From positions 1-33,681 of the IMG/VR virus record IMGVR_UViG_3300024518_003244: a stretch of 33,681 nucleotides of DNA; one strand, 5' to 3'. The notes below the pieces were generated by a model. It made no database searches and was not told the origin of the DNA. It was given only the letters and a program-made list of their open reading frames with translations. The stretch is from a virus. Below, in pieces: positions 955-24,870 of the stretch; the stretch's first letter is position 1, and every line of letters starts with the position of its first letter. The translations under genes and the position numbers were made by a program.

Positions 955-2001
955 CTATAGTGGCGGGGATATTACGCCAACCGCTTGAGATGTTAGCACA
1001 ACTGGGGGCACAACTGCACCAGCTGCTTGATCTGTTAGTGATACCGGCACAGCTACTGATTGACTGCTTTCTGGTGTAACGGTTCGCGGGGCTGCTGGGG
1101 GTGATTCTGTCTCAGCTGACAATGTAGCAGGCGCGCCAACTGACCCAACTGGTGTGGTTCCAAGCTCAATCGGCCTCAGTAATGTGCCGCCCTCTTCCCT
1201 TGAGCTTCCATAATCCTCAAACTCAGTTGGCGCATCACTCGCCGCGCCATAATCTTCAAACACTGTTGGGGCATCTGAGGCGGCACCATAATCAAGATAA
1301 ATCAAATCAGATGAATTGGTCAGAGCCACTGGCACTGCTACTGCGCCAACTGTCTCTGGTGCTACCACCACCGGAACCGCAACTGCACCAGCTGTCTCTG
1401 CTGCCACCACAACTGGGATGGCAACTGCGCCAACCGCATCTGGTGTGACAGTGTTTGGTGCGCCTACCTCCCCAGCAGCGTCTGGTGTGACTGTGTTTGG
1501 TGCGTCAACCTCGCCTGCCGCCTCTGGGGTGACTGTCACAGGAACCGACAAAGCGCCCTCTGTGCGGTCTGTTAGGGCAACTGGTGTTGCCACCTCGCCA
1601 ATGGTCTCACCTGACACTGTTCTAGGCACTGAGAGAGCACCAGCTGTCTCTGGCGTGACATCTACCGGCGCAGCAATGTCTGCAACCGCTTCTGGTGCAA
1701 CAGTGACCGGCACATCTACTGTGCCAACTGTCTCTGGGGCCACCGCTCTAGGGGTCGCAACATCAACCACCGCATCAGGTGTCACTGATCTAGGCGCTGC
1801 TACCTCACCCGCTGCATCAGGTGCAACTGATCTGGGTACTGCAACCACCGCTGCTGAGTCTGGTGTGACTGATCGAGGCACTGCAACTGGGGCGGCTGTT
1901 TCTGGGGTGACTACTACCGGCGCAACTATAGCGCCAGCTGTCTCTGGTGCAACAGTGGTGGGTGGGTCTATACCTTCAACTGGCTCAGGCGTGAATGCCA
2001 T
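955..2001 (-). CDS. Virion-region protein made of about 20 tandem 14-residue repeats
   Basis: 348 aa. After a short N-terminus, residues 17-226 are fifteen back-to-back 14-residue units of the form V-T-P-E/D-T/A-A-G-x-V-x-x-P-x-x. Residues 237-262 hold a different 13-residue unit (DYGAASDAPTVFE) twice. Residues 280-348 return to five more 14-residue units. There is no signal peptide, membrane segment or coiled coil. Units are almost free of aromatic and Cys residues and contain regular Pro and alternating small/beta-branched residues, suggesting a beta-solenoid or extended rod; this is inference. It lies between the tape measure (3 bp gap) and the tail fibre (12 bp gap), so it is probably a tail or fibre component. 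I do not recognise the family. DNA repeats of 42 bp make the gene prone to unit gain and loss. Confidence 0.8.
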   Translation of the reverse strand: MAFTPEPVEGIDPPTTVAPETAGAIVAPVVVTPETAAPVAVPRSVTPDSAAVVAVPRSVAPDAAGEVAAPRSVTPDAVVDVATPRAVAPETVGTVDVPVTVAPEAVADIAAPVDVTPETAGALSVPRTVSGETIGEVATPVALTDRTEGALSVPVTVTPEAAGEVDAPNTVTPDAAGEVGAPNTVTPDAVGAVAIPVVVAAETAGAVAVPVVVAPETVGAVAVPVALTNSSDLIYLDYGAASDAPTVFEDYGAASDAPTEFEDYGSSREEGGTLLRPIELGTTPVGSVGAPATLSAETESPPAAPRTVTPESSQSVAVPVSLTDQAAGAVVPPVVLTSQAVGVISPPL

Positions 2002-12726: not shown

Positions 12727-13239
12727 CTATTCAGCAGGGTCAACAATGGTGCGAGTGATGACGGTTGGAGTCATTGAGCCATCTGAGCTCTGGTGGTCTT
12801 GCTTGTCAGCGAGCCCAACCTCTCTGGATATGATGACAGGGTTGAGCAGGTCAGCTGCTGCGCCTGTGATTTTCTGATGCAGAATGACCTCATTCACCAT
12901 GAGCACCACATCTCTCAGTTTGTGACCCTCAGCGCCCCATGCCATCCATGTGGTGTGATGAATGCCAAGGAATATGCACAGACCGCCCTTGGTCATGGCC
13001 TGCATCTTCTCGACATCGGCATATGTGATGTGACCCTGAAAAGCAAAAGGCCGCTGCTCAATGAGCGGGTTTTTCTCAACCCAGTCAAAATACTCGCAGC
13101 AGTCGGCCCACAGCTTCTTGGGGTCAGTGTATAGCTCAGGCCGCCCAGATGTTGACACGCCATCTTTGTAGGCTCTCTGCCAGAGCTTGTTGCCCTCAAC
13201 CATCAGCGGGCAACCTCTTTTGGGTTTTTCGTCATTCAT
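12727..13239 (-). CDS. Terminase small subunit (P22 gp3-like)
   Basis: 170 aa. Recognises the packaging site and stimulates the large subunit. LYTDPKKLWADCCEYFDWVE followed by KNPLIEQRPF is characteristic of the gp3-like small terminase family; a helical oligomerisation core follows (LCIFLGIHHTTWMAWGAEGH, VVLMVNEVILHQKITGAAAD). The acidic/polar tail (DQHSSDG-like region near 145-155) is probably disordered. It is directly followed by the large subunit gene. Confidence 0.87.
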   Translation of the reverse strand: MNDEKPKRGCPLMVEGNKLWQRAYKDGVSTSGRPELYTDPKKLWADCCEYFDWVEKNPLIEQRPFAFQGHITYADVEKMQAMTKGGLCIFLGIHHTTWMAWGAEGHKLRDVVLMVNEVILHQKITGAAADLLNPVIISREVGLADKQDHQSSDGSMTPTVITRTIVDPAE

Positions 13240-14779: not shown

Positions 14780-14808
14780 ATTCTGGGCTATCATTTATGT
14801 TCTGTCAA
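14780..14808 (-). promoter_or_regulatory. Sigma70-type promoter for the late operon
   Basis: Minus strand: perfect -35 TTGACA (14808-14803), 17-bp spacer, -10 CAGAAT (14785-14780, 4 of 6 matches). Predicted start near 14773, about 33 nt before the leader ATG. Two direct AGTGTAACCT boxes and one inverted box lie just upstream of the -35 (14823-14858), where an activator or repressor could act. Confidence 0.65.
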
Positions 14809-14822
14809 CTATTTTTGTTATA

Positions 14823-15109
14823 AGTGTAACCTAGTGTAACCTATTTTGAGGTTACACTGTCCCGCATCCCGCGCCCTGTCTAGCTTTCCGGCGATTTAGT
14901 GTAACCTATCTCGAAAAACGAGCTCAAAACTAATCTCGTGCGTTTATGCTCAAGGGCAGTGCCCTTACGCGTGTGCCCTTTTGTATATTGCTATATAACT
15001 ATATATATATATAAGGTTACACTAGGTTACACTAAAGTGGCTACAGCCCTTGCACACTGGGCTTTTCCCGATAGTGTAACCTTCCTAGAGGATACACTAA
15101 GGTTACACT
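14823..15109. repeat. Cluster of nine AGTGTAACCT boxes in both orientations
   Basis: Plus-orientation copies: 14823-14832, 14833-14842, 14898-14907, 15073-15082. Reverse copies: 14849-14858, 15014-15023, 15024-15033, 15089-15098 (one mismatch) and 15100-15109. Two are adjacent direct pairs, and two sets form inverted pairs about 6 bp apart (14833/14849 and 15073/15089). An AT-only stretch (about 14991-15013) lies next to one direct pair. No gene is supported here. The layout is like iterons of an origin or operators of a phage regulator. Confidence 0.85.
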
Positions 15110-15111
15110 GT

Positions 15112-15141
15112 TTTATGGGCTTAAATGAGAATGATTGTCAA
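15112..15141 (-). promoter_or_regulatory. Second minus-strand promoter inside the control region
   Basis: Minus strand: perfect -35 TTGACA (15141-15136), 18-bp spacer, -10 CATAAA (15117-15112, 4 of 6). The predicted start (near 15105) falls on the AGTGTAACCT boxes at 15073-15109, so box occupancy would be expected to block it. Any transcript would run about 365 nt before the leader gene and could be a primer RNA, a leader or a regulatory RNA. Confidence 0.5.
15126..15140. promoter_or_regulatory. Fur-box-like site over the -35 element
   Basis: TGAGAATGATTGTCA matches the bacterial Fur 7-1-7 consensus (TGATAAT-N-ATTATCA) at 12 of 14 defined positions and is itself an imperfect inverted repeat. 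It overlaps the -35 of the promoter at 15112-15141. It may be a chance match in an AT-leaning region. Confidence 0.35.
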
Positions 15142-15231
15142 TAACCTCTGCCCTTTTGCATATTGGGAAATTACAAAAGGGCAGAGAGTCAAAAAGGCAG
15201 GAATTACAAAAGGGCAGCTATCCGCTAGGGG

Positions 15232-15390
15232 TTAAGCGGCAAAAGTGCCCCTCTGCTTGAGATCACACATGACCCTAATAGCTGTCTCAGACTTGCTTGC
15301 GCTTGGGTTGGCCTTGACAGCCTTGAGATACTCCCTTGCAAATAGTCGAGGGCTGATACCGTTATCCTTGGCGAATTGGGCCAGCTGCAT
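15232..15390 (-). CDS. Small hypothetical protein at the end of the replication operon
   Basis: 52 aa. ATG 15390-15388 overlaps the methyltransferase stop (TAATG), so it is probably translated by coupling. Starts MQLAQFAKDNGISPRLFARE and contains KSETAIRVMCDLKQRG. Helical; the first 25 residues could be a helix-turn-helix-like or nucleic-acid-binding module, but this is not certain. It is the last gene before the repeat region. Confidence 0.6.
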   Translation of the reverse strand: MQLAQFAKDNGISPRLFAREYLKAVKANPSASKSETAIRVMCDLKQRGTFAA

Positions 15391-16025
15391 TAGAACATAC
15401 TCTGCTGCGCTGTCTCGCGCTCAAATCGCTCGCAAGCGGCTTTGTAGTAATCCTCGTCTAGTTCGCAACCTACGAAGTCAAAACCTCCGTAATGGGCAGC
15501 AATGGCGCTTGAGCCTGATCCTAAATGCGTATCTAGGATTCTATCGCCTTCTTTGGCGTAGTTTTTTAGGAGCCAGTCGTAGAGTTTTACGGGTTTTTGA
15601 GTTGGGTGGAACCTCACTTTGTTGTTGGCTAGAGCCTCACCTCTGCTCATATCAAATATACGAAGCGCTTTATTAAAAGAAGTCCATGCCAGCTCCCCAT
15701 CTGCTAACGAAAAATCTCGCTGCATTTTGTTCCACACAATCCATCCCGCGCTATCATGTGGGTTTTTGCTGATAAAGTGGTTTGCTCCCCATATAATCTG
15801 ATTTTTGGAAACTCGGTGAATCTCATTAAAATAATCTACTGTTGGCGCAGACTTGTCCCACCCACCACTATGGTATTGTACCCACCCGTTTTCTTTTTTC
15901 CCTTCATGCGTATCTGCGCCTATCCCATAAGGCGGATCAACAATCGCAAGCTCAAAAGCGTTATCTTCAAGCCCTGCCATATATTCCATGCAGTCGATGT
16001 TTAAAAGTTCGATATTCTTATTCAT
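15390..16025 (-). CDS. DNA adenine/cytosine-N4 methyltransferase (orphan)
   Basis: 211 aa. Transfers a methyl group from SAM to an exocyclic base amine. Catalytic motif IV DPPYG (30-34) comes before SAM motif I DTHLGSGSSA (165-174), with motif X-like FHPTQKPV (139-146) between, the beta-class order. No restriction enzyme is adjacent, so it is an orphan, probably protecting phage DNA or marking the genome. The domain is small and lacks an obvious separate target-recognition domain. Its start overlaps the DUF4406-like stop by 1 bp. Confidence 0.92.
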   Translation of the reverse strand: MNKNIELLNIDCMEYMAGLEDNAFELAIVDPPYGIGADTHEGKKENGWVQYHSGGWDKSAPTVDYFNEIHRVSKNQIIWGANHFISKNPHDSAGWIVWNKMQRDFSLADGELAWTSFNKALRIFDMSRGEALANNKVRFHPTQKPVKLYDWLLKNYAKEGDRILDTHLGSGSSAIAAHYGGFDFVGCELDEDYYKAACERFERETAQQSMF

Positions 16026-16366
16026 TATTCACCAGCCTGCTCAGGCACAAGTAGAATGTCTTTATATACTGGAACTCCCAACCGCTGCGCCTCTTGTATC
16101 TCTGCAAGAGTGCCAGATGATTGCTCGTAACCCTGAACAACGAGAACGGCATCACAACGCCGCATTAGCTCTAGGGTTCCGGCCAGCCAAAACGCATCGT
16201 GTGTGGCGGTTAGATGCTCAAAACCAGATGTGTTGGAGTGAGGTATCACTGGGTAATATCCTTTTTCAACTACAAGCACCCCAGCGGCCCTTGCCGCTTG
16301 AATGTTTAGATCAACTGCCTCTCTTGTTTTTCCTCTGTAACGCCCTGCTATATATATTAGTTTCAT
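16025..16366 (-). CDS. DUF4406 / nucleoside deoxyribosyltransferase-like protein
   Basis: 113 aa. The Rossmann-like start KLIYIAGRYRGKTREAVDLN, then GYYPVIPHSNTSGFEHL, DAFWLAGTLELMRRCDAVLV and a late acidic GTLAEIQEAQ are diagnostic of the DUF4406/nucleoside 2-deoxyribosyltransferase superfamily. In this superfamily such proteins handle modified nucleotides or nucleosides. The late E (in GTLAEI) could be the nucleophile equivalent. Encoded with the methyltransferase and replication protein, it may act on phage DNA precursors; no substrate can be read. Confidence 0.82.
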   Translation of the reverse strand: MKLIYIAGRYRGKTREAVDLNIQAARAAGVLVVEKGYYPVIPHSNTSGFEHLTATHDAFWLAGTLELMRRCDAVLVVQGYEQSSGTLAEIQEAQRLGVPVYKDILLVPEQAGE

Positions 16367-16375
16367 CTTTATGCC

Positions 16376-18664
16376 TTAGTGAGTGAGTGTTAATTTTCTA
16401 GGCGGCACCAGCAACAAATTTTGGCCATTAGAGCGCTTGCCCCTGCCTCCATTATGCTTGCGGATAATTGACGCACCGCTTGTTGTGTCAGACCGAGTTG
16501 GCCGGTCAACACCACAGTCAAGCAAAACCTCAGTGGTGGTTTTCCACTTCCACTCTGCATTTGGGTTTTGCCAGTCAAGCCGGTTGAGAATTCGCTCCTC
16601 GATGGGGTCAGCTGCCATAAACTCCTCATTGGAGTTGTTGAGCATTTCCATTTCTGTATGGTTCAGGTAATGGCTCTCACCGGCCTGCCAAAGTGTCTTG
16701 ATCTCAGCCCACAGCTGCTGCATGTTGATTGAGTGATCATGGTCTATGGCCACTGTTTCAATTGTCCAGTATCGGCGGTTACCAGTTGCGTCTTGTAGGA
16801 ATCCGCGAGGGTTCACAGATCCAAAGAACACAGTACGCCTTGCATAGTGCGATTCTTTTCTTGCATAGGGCCGACGCAACACATCAGAGCTTGATGTCAA
16901 GAATGCCTTGAGCGCAGCCAGATCAGATTTCCTGAAGGTGCTGTCAAGCTCGCCAAGTTCAACCAACCAGAATGAGCAGACCTGCTTGACTGAATCCTTG
17001 TCATCAGGCTTGAGGATCATGCCATCTTTAACTAGGCCCAATTCCGCTGGCACAAGATTTTTAAACCATTGAGTCTTGCCCATATACTGAGCGCCCTGAA
17101 ATACCAGAGCACCACCTGCACTGACACCATTGGGATCAAATCCGGCAATGACTGCAGAGATCATCCAGCGCTTGATGAGGATCTCTTTGAGGTCTTTTCG
17201 CTCTGGGAAATCATCTTCATCTCTGGCCGTGATGGTCTTGTATATGTCAGGCAGGCGGCTCACACCATCCCATGGTTTTGAGTCTATCCATTCTGCCACT
17301 GGGTTGTAGAGGTTTTTGTCTGCGAGATAGCACAGGAACTCTGGCACCTTGTCTGTGCCATATTCAAACCGGCTGCACTCCGACACCAGCCAAGCAAGAC
17401 TGGCATTGGCTTGATTGTCCACGCTAAATGATTGATTAGGGATGATCACTTCTTCCGCTTTGGTGATCACGTTGTATCGGACATGCACCCCCAAGCGCTC
17501 ACAGATCGCCTTGAGGTTCTCAATGTGCTTGAGCGGCTTGCCTTTGCTGTTGGCGTATGGGAGCGGGTCAAAGTGGTTCACAGCTGGGAGGCTTTCCATC
17601 TCTGGGTATTCGTCAACCAGAGCGCCTGTGGATGGTGCAGGGGCAACTTGCCTTGGTTCCGGCTGTGGGTTTGGCTCATGGTTTGGCTCTCTGACAATCC
17701 CAAGAGCCTTGGCTGCAGCCTTCACTGCCTTGCTGACATCGCCGTTGTGCTCGTAGTAGCAGAACAGATCAAAGCTATTGACCGGCGCACCTGACTCAGC
17801 TGAGCAGAGCGGGTCACTGGCATGGTGAATCCATGCTCTGGCGCCATCGGGCAATATGTGAACACCAGCAAGCCCTGTGCCGCTGTGAGGCGATAACCAG
17901 CGCCGCCCCTTCTGTTGGTATCCATACGCCTCAAGAGCTACTGGCAGAGAAACTGTGCTTGTGTACTGGCCAATGACATCTGGGCTGCTGTTATCGGTTG
18001 AGGCTCTCTGCTGTCTGGGGGCGGCTTTTACAGCTATTTCTTTTTCTGACCATGGGCAGCTCATTTGCATTTGAGGCTTTAGTGTTGCCCATCCTTCCCA
18101 GATAGCCAGCAACCAATGAGGCGGCTCTGGCCACTCCTTAATTGATGAGGGTGGCTGTGTCATCCATGCGTAATTTCTCTGCGCCTCTTCATGCCAGCTT
18201 GGTGGTGCAATATCCTGCCTAGCCTTGCCATCTGTTGCGGCTCTTAGCTCAAAAACTGTAAATTGTTTTTTTGCATCTTCCTTTTGCGGCCAGTTTAATT
18301 TTTGATAGTTAAGCTCTACCCCCTCTGGAACTCGGAACAGAACACGATGGCCTTTGTCGCCGCCTTTAATTGTTGGGTATTTTTCCAGCTCCTCAATGGG
18401 GATGCCAAACTCATCTAATATGGTTTTAAAGCTGTCTAGGTGATCAATATCTAGGCTGCACATACCTGAAGGCCCAAGAGCAATGCCCATGTTCCAAGTT
18501 GGGTGCTGCTTGTAGAAAGCCTCCGCTGCAGCTGGATCTGTTATGCAGTTTTCACCCCAATCTTTTGTTCTTGGAAATTTCCGCTTGGGTTCAATGGGCA
18601 CTAGATGAAAGTTGAACTGCTCACAGTATTTGCGAGCGTACCAGTCAATTGTTTTTTTGGTCAT
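16376..18664 (-). CDS. Primase-polymerase fused to VapE/VirE-type ATPase (replication initiator)
   Basis: 762 aa from ATG 18664-18662. AAGGA sits 10 nt upstream of this ATG, whereas an in-frame ATG 21 bp further upstream has no ribosome site. Residues 1-190 are a bifunctional primase/polymerase domain with the metal pair DID in MCSLDIDHLDSF (about 72-74). The middle (about 230-320) looks like a primase C-terminal or DNA-binding region. Residues 385-690 are a VapE/VirE-type P-loop domain with Walker A GAQYMGKT (about 524-531), the following FWLVELGELDS and GNRRYWTIE. It probably opens and primes the origin. It is the key replication protein, as no DNA polymerase gene is seen. Confidence 0.92.
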   Translation of the reverse strand: MTKKTIDWYARKYCEQFNFHLVPIEPKRKFPRTKDWGENCITDPAAAEAFYKQHPTWNMGIALGPSGMCSLDIDHLDSFKTILDEFGIPIEELEKYPTIKGGDKGHRVLFRVPEGVELNYQKLNWPQKEDAKKQFTVFELRAATDGKARQDIAPPSWHEEAQRNYAWMTQPPSSIKEWPEPPHWLLAIWEGWATLKPQMQMSCPWSEKEIAVKAAPRQQRASTDNSSPDVIGQYTSTVSLPVALEAYGYQQKGRRWLSPHSGTGLAGVHILPDGARAWIHHASDPLCSAESGAPVNSFDLFCYYEHNGDVSKAVKAAAKALGIVREPNHEPNPQPEPRQVAPAPSTGALVDEYPEMESLPAVNHFDPLPYANSKGKPLKHIENLKAICERLGVHVRYNVITKAEEVIIPNQSFSVDNQANASLAWLVSECSRFEYGTDKVPEFLCYLADKNLYNPVAEWIDSKPWDGVSRLPDIYKTITARDEDDFPERKDLKEILIKRWMISAVIAGFDPNGVSAGGALVFQGAQYMGKTQWFKNLVPAELGLVKDGMILKPDDKDSVKQVCSFWLVELGELDSTFRKSDLAALKAFLTSSSDVLRRPYARKESHYARRTVFFGSVNPRGFLQDATGNRRYWTIETVAIDHDHSINMQQLWAEIKTLWQAGESHYLNHTEMEMLNNSNEEFMAADPIEERILNRLDWQNPNAEWKWKTTTEVLLDCGVDRPTRSDTTSGASIIRKHNGGRGKRSNGQNLLLVPPRKLTLTH

Positions 18665-20519: not shown

Positions 20520-20713
20520 CCTCTCAGCTTCCCTGTGATCAAAAGCCACAACACAAAGAATGGAACCAGCGCAACCATGACCGCGCTGAGTGGATTGTCG
20601 AAAAAATCAACAAGATGGCTGGGCGGTCTGCCTTGATAGAACAGCGCCAGCAAAACAACAAAAATGCAGAACGCATACCAGAGCGCCATGAGGATCAGAA
20701 TATCAATTATCAT
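20516..20713 (-). CDS. Small membrane protein in the early operon
   Basis: 65 aa with two strong hydrophobic segments (residues about 2-25, IIDILILMALWYAFCIFVVL, and 43-60, AVMVALVPFFVLWLLI) and a short polar loop between. It overlaps the regulator gene upstream by 11 bp and the helicase gene by 4 bp. Early expression and membrane location would fit superinfection exclusion, but there is no family signature. Confidence 0.68.
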   Translation of the reverse strand: MIIDILILMALWYAFCIFVVLLALFYQGRPPSHLVDFFDNPLSAVMVALVPFFVLWLLITGKLRG

Positions 20714-20915
20714 TTTTCACCTCATGCCGATCAATTGCAATTTGCAACTTATCCATCAATTCAATGGTTGGGTTCGCCATGCCTGATCTGATGGCTCTCA
20801 GGGTGTTGTACCCAACAGGGCAGTTTTTGCAGAAGGCCATCAGGTTGAGGTCAGGCTGGTTGAGAAATGCGCGCTGCTTTTCTAGCTGCTCGCGTGCTGC
20901 TGACTGTTTGCTCAT
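20703..20915 (-). CDS. Cro-like helix-turn-helix regulator
   Basis: 70 aa. Residues about 24-63 (LMAFCKNCPVGYNTLRAIRS then MANPTIELMDKLQIAID) follow the Cro/CI helix-turn-helix layout: a recognition helix after a turn, then the N-P-T-I-x-x-L-D-K-L third helix. It is too short for a cleavable CI repressor. Second gene of the leftward early operon, so it can act on the divergent promoter region (21164-21247) or on the AGTGTAACCT boxes. It overlaps the Cys-rich protein gene by 4 bp. Confidence 0.7.
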   Translation of the reverse strand: MSKQSAAREQLEKQRAFLNQPDLNLMAFCKNCPVGYNTLRAIRSGMANPTIELMDKLQIAIDRHEVKNDN

Positions 20916-24495: not shown

Positions 24496-24870
24496 ATGAA
24501 AACAGAATCTGAAAAGCTGCTCAATAGCCTCATCACCAAGATGGCCGAATACAACGCCAACGAATTGGCAGAGGCATCTGGTGTTGGTGTTATCACCATC
24601 AGGCACATCATGTCTTGCAAAAGAGTGCCCAGCATCAACACTCTGGCAGCTATCGAGCGCGCCATGCTGAGCATTACCACTCAAACAAGCGGGGCCAGCC
24701 GGTTCTCTAAATGCTGCAGAGATAATGATGCAGCTGAGCGCGATGTTCGCAAGGTAATGACCCAGCAGGCGCTCAGGCGCTCACAGGCAGGCTTGCCAGC
24801 TTACAGTGAGCCAGATGCCATCATTGAGGCTATAGGCTTGGTTAAGACTATTACAGGGGCATTGCGATGA
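24496..24870 (+). CDS. Helix-turn-helix transcriptional regulator
   Basis: 124 aa. Residues about 16-60 (MAEYNANELAEASGVGVITI then RHIMSCKRVPSINTLAAIER) form a Cro/CI-type helix-turn-helix. The C-terminal half has CCRDNDAAERDVRKVMTQQA and could mediate oligomerisation, but no protease or dimerisation family is evident. It is in the middle of the rightward early operon, so it may switch from early to late expression. It is the second helix-turn-helix protein in the genome and a candidate reader of the AGTGTAACCT boxes. Confidence 0.7.
   Translation: MKTESEKLLNSLITKMAEYNANELAEASGVGVITIRHIMSCKRVPSINTLAAIERAMLSITTQTSGASRFSKCCRDNDAAERDVRKVMTQQALRRSQAGLPAYSEPDAIIEAIGLVKTITGALR

Follow-up and report, generated by a model that had tools for sequence, protein, structure and literature searches.

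The array of AGTGTAACCT boxes at positions 14823-15109 of the viral contig analysed here (the window, the whole stretch of 33,681 bp) is, with a probability that we put at about 0.87, the DNA replication origin of the phage, its boxes being bound by the winged helix at the C-terminus of the VapE-type primase-helicase that the phage itself encodes. This reading rests on the conserved place of such arrays beside VapE genes, their conserved layout, and the covariation of box letters with residues of the winged helix; it is further supported by the location of the covarying residues in the wing and recognition helix of a confidently predicted winged helix, by new arrays that obey the rule at residue 751, by the window's own residues R751, N753, N756 and T735, which fit its box AGTGTAAC, and by the likeness to known SaPI and PICI origins. 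One point against it is that the window's array lies 1,267 bp and three genes away from the VapE stop codon and does not adjoin it. A first-pass annotation had offered the region as a candidate origin, with the primase-polymerase among its possible binders, and that proposal is now strongly supported by the arrays, their layout and the winged-helix covariation.

The box array and its genomic surroundings

Eight exact copies of the box and one with a single mismatch are present in both orientations (Table 1), as the first-pass annotation had described, and no further copy with 0 or 1 mismatch occurs elsewhere in the contig; about 0.06 exact copies would be expected in the window by chance, and the reversed control pattern of the box has 0 occurrences there. 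The description of the array as free of genes also holds, with no ORF of note across the boxes and flanking ORFs that start at 14794(-) and end at 15232(-), and the AT tract noted beside the boxes is real, being the AT maximum of the window (85%, vs 50% for the window as a whole). Missed at that stage were the mirror symmetry of the array, its position downstream of the VapE gene, and a second repeat. The symmetry is centred on ~14965.5, about which the boxes at 14823+, 14833+, 14849- and 14898+ answer those at 15100-, 15089-, 15073+ and 15024-, with gaps of 10/16/49 in one half-array vs 11/16/49 in the other; read in the orientation of VapE, the array is >> < >> [118] < > <<. The second and weaker repeat, AAAAGGGCA / TGCCCTTTTGYATATT, is interleaved with the origin boxes within 14952-15217, with copies near 14952, 14960, 14974, 15149, 15177 and 15210, among which is a perfect 13-bp inverted repeat (15146-15158/15174-15186). 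GC skew, which had been suggested as a check for an origin, is uninformative: within the window it has no turning point at the array and tracks gene strand.

Table 1. Array, neighbouring genes and predicted initiator domains, in window coordinates
Feature	Position	Strand	Basis or remark
Box 1, AGTGTAACCT	14823..14832	+	
Box 2, AGTGTAACCT	14833..14842	+	
Box 3, AGTGTAACCT	14849..14858	-	
Box 4, AGTGTAACCT	14898..14907	+	inward-facing, borders central gap
Central gap between the two half-arrays	14908..15013	.	in relatives, median 98 bp, start to start
AT-richest 40 bp of window	14979..15019	.	85% AT; probable unwinding element
Box 5, AGTGTAACCT	15014..15023	-	inward-facing
Box 6, AGTGTAACCT	15024..15033	-	paired with box 5
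Box 7, AGTGTAACCT	15073..15082	+	flipped
Box 8, AGTGTATCCT	15089..15098	-	one mismatch
Box 9, AGTGTAACCT	15100..15109	-	
Promoter-like TTGACA-17-CAGAAT	14780..14808	-	promoter scan, weak; toward packaging/structural genes
Three genes between VapE and array	15232..16366	-	
52-aa ORF	15232-15390	-	
N6/N4 DNA methyltransferase	15390-16025	-	
DUF7768/deoxyribosyltransferase-like gene	16025-16366	-	
PrimPol + VapE SF3 primase-helicase, 769 aa	16376..18685	-	Pfam; predicted box-binding initiator
Predicted C-terminal winged helix, residues 694-763	16397..16606	-	AlphaFold, mean pLDDT ~95
Predicted recognition helix, residues 731-745	16451-16495	-	AlphaFold
Predicted wing, residues 749-760	16406-16441	-	strands 749-752 and 755-760

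The contig encodes terminase, portal, tape measure, tail fibre and endolysin. Its primase-helicase combines an N-terminal Prim-Pol domain (PF09250, E 1.5e-21) with a VapE-like SF3 helicase domain (PF05272, E 1.3e-49); the helicase part matched one PDB entry by phmmer, 7pds (E 8e-20); this entry has the listing 'Similar to D. nodosus vapE' and the title PriRep1 with dsDNA, and we take it to be a SaPI replication protein. The gene order and shared strand beside the array place it downstream of this initiator gene. The methyltransferase gene that lies between the primase and the array has a counterpart in phage ep3 (L409, 3384-4361), where a DNA methylase is encoded immediately after the primase, and it is conceivable that methylation could affect origin firing. 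Elsewhere in the window, a 348-aa ORF at 955-2001(-) consists almost entirely of a degenerate VTPETAGAVAVP-like repeat and is likely a repetitive tail-associated or linker protein.

Arrays beside VapE genes in relatives

Scanning IMG/VR for the 20-mer double box returned three other viral contigs (L009, L010 and L011); the exact box is mostly not conserved. Each of the three has a VapE-type gene ahead of its boxes: those of L010 lie 55 bp after the VapE stop, and L009 and L011 carry ten AGTGTAAC copies ~580-865 bp past it. We searched VapE loci for clustered k-mers with no motif assumed, in a sample of 42 VapE relatives and 80 closer ones drawn from the best matches listed, scoring the best 8-mer cluster (<=1 mismatch, both strands, 350 bp) against dinucleotide shuffles. 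The top cluster falls at or just after the VapE stop in most loci. A significant array (above 20 shuffles) is present between -200 and +1800 of the stop in 50 of the 65 non-redundant loci scored, a fraction that, coming from best matches listed, is not an unbiased prevalence; for the 2 kb upstream of the gene the corresponding figure is 9/53 (above 10 shuffles). Top scores reach 10, vs shuffle maxima of 3-4. The arrays are 200-300 bp long and usually lie within 400 bp of the VapE stop.

The array, its place and its layout are common to these relatives although the box letters differ. Each phage has its own box, AGTGTAACCT, CAGTGTACC, AGTGTAGGG, AGTGCCTC, AGTGCAACC, AGGGACACT, AGGGTAGAG, GGGGTCACT, ATGACACCT, ATGTCACCT and ATGACCAA being among those found. 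Neighbouring boxes that face the same way have a spacing peak at 8-10 bp; the inner boxes, which come in inward-facing pairs, are opposed across the central gap in 46 of the 55 arrays that have such a gap, which is AT-richer than its locus in 53/55 (median length 98 bp); and in 83/95 cases the box that follows on the outer side has the reverse orientation, distances peaking at 43-50 bp (~46 bp). Lack of box conservation in related phages, which the first-pass annotation had set as part of a refuting test, would mislead, since the array, its place and its layout are kept and the letters mostly are not. Its remark that the box is not recognisable from a known system was reasonable, the box being specific to each phage's VapE.

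Among ten cultured phages checked for arrays, a clear one is found only in Acinetobacter phage Alexa, with nine AGTGCAAC/AGTGCATC boxes at +279 to +525 after the primase gene; in phiWae15 and VP16T an array is not clear, and none is present near the VapE gene of ep3, Bas97, KA2-1, Mica, FoX3, Persinger or PPpW-3. Nor was a convincing array found in the whole genome of Mano, the nearest isolate with a name (61% across the helicase), which with the preceding seven accounts for the array-less loci L408, L409, L411, L412, L413, L415, L416 and L407. Mano and Iiscvirinae-like phages such as ep3 thus indicate that VapE at times occurs without an array, and this array-less cultured clade and Mano must start replication elsewhere or at cryptic sites.

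Beyond VapE, non-coding AGTGTAAC arrays were seen beside D5_N/DUF5906 primase-helicases (L058, L143, L183, L184, L213), beside DUF3987 genes (L078, L106, L194, L216) and beside DUF927 with a Cch HTH (L254). That the box form may extend past VapE to other SF3-type families is only suggestive: the link between AGTGTAAC and SF3 across contigs is a weak contrast, because the reversed-box control likewise places an SF3 primase within 2-3 kb of 2 out of about 10 non-coding array families. The wider pattern scans were set aside, as they returned many coding repeats in one orientation with spacing a multiple of 9 or 18. In seven further contigs (L130, L136, L137, L157, L158, L159, L171) AGTGTAAC boxes, three or four one way and one opposite, lie just upstream of the small-terminase gene; these are possibly a packaging site in that family, a role not suggested for the window phage.

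VapE winged-helix residues that covary with the box letters

For 47 phages, boxes were oriented by layout and their register was set by hand, guided by layout, giving an alignment whose first four letters are [AG][GA][TG]G in most boxes and whose last four vary; the last 480 residues of VapE, in window residue numbering, were then scanned for covariation with box positions. The strongest pair joins residue 751 (within KRSNG) to box position 3 (Fisher p=2.5e-10). Phages whose boxes are xGGG have K at residue 751 in 12/12 cases; where the boxes are xxTG, this residue is R in 31/35 and K in 1/35. It predicts box position 3 in 46/47 phages, vs 39/47 for the best column of the helicase domain, so that shared ancestry does not explain the covariation. 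On a tree built from the helicase domain only, box position 3 changed seven times, and residue 751 changed alongside it in 5/5 phylogenetically independent pairs on supported branches, although each such sign test has too few pairs for p<0.05. Two close pairs illustrate the change: L328 (AGGG, RKSNG) vs L361 (AGTG, KRSNG), and L041 (AGGG, RKTNG) vs L018 (AGTG, RRTNG). The covariation is weaker for N753 and A at position 1 (~4/5 independent pairs agreeing) and for R756 and C at position 6 (~4.4/6), each having almost no contrary pairs. A covariation of T735 with box position 8 failed the tree test and was rejected.

Two further scans supplied 12 non-redundant new arrays, for which boxes were assigned before residues were read. 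K751 is found exactly when position 3 is G in 11 of the 12, a set in which the L424 box is ambiguous and the L465 and L481 arrays are weak; the single miss, L497, is distant and poorly aligned. The wing of phage Alexa, KRSNG, also agrees with the 751 rule, in a comparison that was not blind.

An AlphaFold run on the last 130 VapE residues, with a 47-row alignment, predicts the winged helix in Table 1. Residues 751, 753 and 756 fall in the predicted wing, and 732 and 735 in the predicted recognition helix; the wing and the recognition helix are the parts of winged-helix proteins that touch DNA. A PDB sequence search with the domain gave no matches, and Foldseek gave nothing below E 0.001. The VIA-align rows are generic winged helices (RFX5, Z 5.0; ASFV PrimPol 9ivf, Z 4.7; 7pds, Z 4.3), and these matches of the predicted fold are within noise, compatible with the assignment and not diagnostic of it. 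The P4 alpha domain was absent from the fold-search rows for the window's winged helix, itself predicted with high confidence.

Known origins, alternative readings and implications

The closest parallels to the array are found in satellites. SaPI origins have iterons directly downstream of rep that are read by the Rep C-terminus (PMC7581432), and PICI origins have two iteron sets around an AT-rich region, with ori deletion lowering plasmid maintenance (PMC6092414). Like these elements (SaPIbov1, SaPI1, EfCIV583, EcCICFT073), the window has an SF3-type initiator with a C-terminal DNA-binding domain (predicted in the window) and two iteron sets around an AT-rich stretch downstream of the initiator gene, and by its layout the array fits an origin of the SaPI/PICI kind. 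It differs in belonging to an apparent tailed phage and not a satellite, in an initiator fused to a PrimPol domain, in the displacement of the array by three genes, and in a box, AGTGTAACCT, of its own; having its own structural genes, the window phage would therefore work like, but is not, a SaPI or PICI. In SCCmec, the isolated C-terminal domain of Cch2 binds repeats downstream of the helicase gene, at a putative origin (PMC7581432). The Cch2 iteron AAGTG resembles the AGTG start of the window box (PMC7581432), whereas Cch2 has only three 5-bp iterons and a separate A-family primase-polymerase pair. The P4 alpha primase-helicase binds origin repeats through a winged helix, according to the passage of PMC4234260 that cites Ziegelin and Lanka 1995 and Yeo 2002. 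Its primase is of Toprim type, in contrast to the PF09250 Prim-Pol of the window. For its type I iteron, P4 has a sequence near GGTGAACAG, in line with the RGTG+4 pattern of the family.

Reasoning from SaPI Rep, PICI Pri-Rep, SCCmec Cch2 and P4 alpha, we infer that the array would be physically bound and melted, that it would fire as an origin, and that the initiator would form two opposed hexamers there. Each 10-bp box would serve as a site to which the phage's PrimPol-VapE binds through its C-terminal winged helix, and boxes ~10 bp apart (one helical turn) in mirrored half-arrays would nucleate two opposed VapE rings flanking the AT-rich gap. After melting of this gap by the SF3 motor and priming by the PrimPol domain, a pair of forks would move off.

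Other functions for the boxes are much less probable. The first-pass annotation had also considered a late-gene switch, that is, an operator array at which a phage or host regulator, such as the helix-turn-helix proteins of 20703-20915 or 24496-24870, would bind and so switch the late promoter; the boxes do abut the TTGACA-17-CAGAAT match, late genes begin just past it, and such a second effect would be possible for an origin array too. Of the two promoters it had proposed, this one was recovered and the second TTGACA (~15139) was not picked up by the scan, and the recovered match is weak, because 4 of such quality were found vs 1.7 per region expected by chance in shuffles. Homologues of the two small proteins occur in only 3/20 and 1/20 array-bearing phages, which argues against them as binders, and in relatives the array follows VapE and not a fixed late promoter, its letters covarying with VapE, so the switch is unsupported and an operator improbable. 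A packaging (cos/pac) site read by the small terminase (12727-13239) is more doubtful again: one marine phage family does have AGTGTAAC arrays just upstream of its small-terminase gene (L159, L130), with no VapE or DUF3987 found in its searched records, but in the window's relatives the array lies next to VapE, whose residues covary with the box letters, and in the window three other ORFs and 1.6 kb separate it from the terminase gene.

A parS-like partition or silencing site for a segregation protein is a very remote prospect, for although such sites typically consist of short intergenic boxes in inverted and direct order, nothing seen in this analysis links the array to a ParB-type gene, and the covariation is with VapE. 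We give equally little credence to the reading that a large stem-loop 3' of the gene is where the initiator assembles, the boxes being only arms of that structure. In the pRN1 ORF904 and BPP-1/BIP-1 type, which has the same domain order (PrimPol, SF3 helicase, winged helix) and an origin downstream of its gene, the proposal for pRN1 ORF904 and phage BIP-1 is a stem-loop origin in place of iterons (PMC4234260), and inverted boxes could pair. No iterons are reported for that type, whereas the window's VapE family has them; its boxes are direct as well as inverted, at ~10-bp spacing, near-identical within a phage, and covary with residues predicted to contact DNA, as expected for protein-binding sites. 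With iterons present in the window, a stem-loop would not stand in place of them there, and judged from sequence the stem-loop-not-iteron view does not hold for the surveyed VapE phages. It may still apply to BPP-1, which is not a close VapE relative and has no array of the window's form; four TTTGCCTCG-like repeats lie ~466-570 bp downstream of its primase stop (L505), in a region where the origin previously proposed is a stem-loop only.

With the array read as an origin bound by VapE, we consider it probable that VapE-type phages share a common origin architecture in which the boxes drift in step with a few wing residues, specificity being re-settable by single changes; the residues concerned would be 751 (K/R with G/T at position 3), N753 (with A1) and R756 (with C6), together with smaller signals in the recognition helix. 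If the boxes drift in this way, the sequence of an origin would be partly readable from the protein. What seems to be new here is the breadth of the arrays among tailed phages and the residue-level code. The origins of most VapE/SF3 tailed phages lack annotation, and putative iteron origins can now be placed beside most of the VapE genes surveyed. Their shared geometry and the residue-to-base code may allow prediction of where replication starts and of which phages are replication-compatible, the code pairing individual protein changes with the individual base changes expected to match them, and they would connect phages, through their origins, with satellites such as SaPIs and PICIs.
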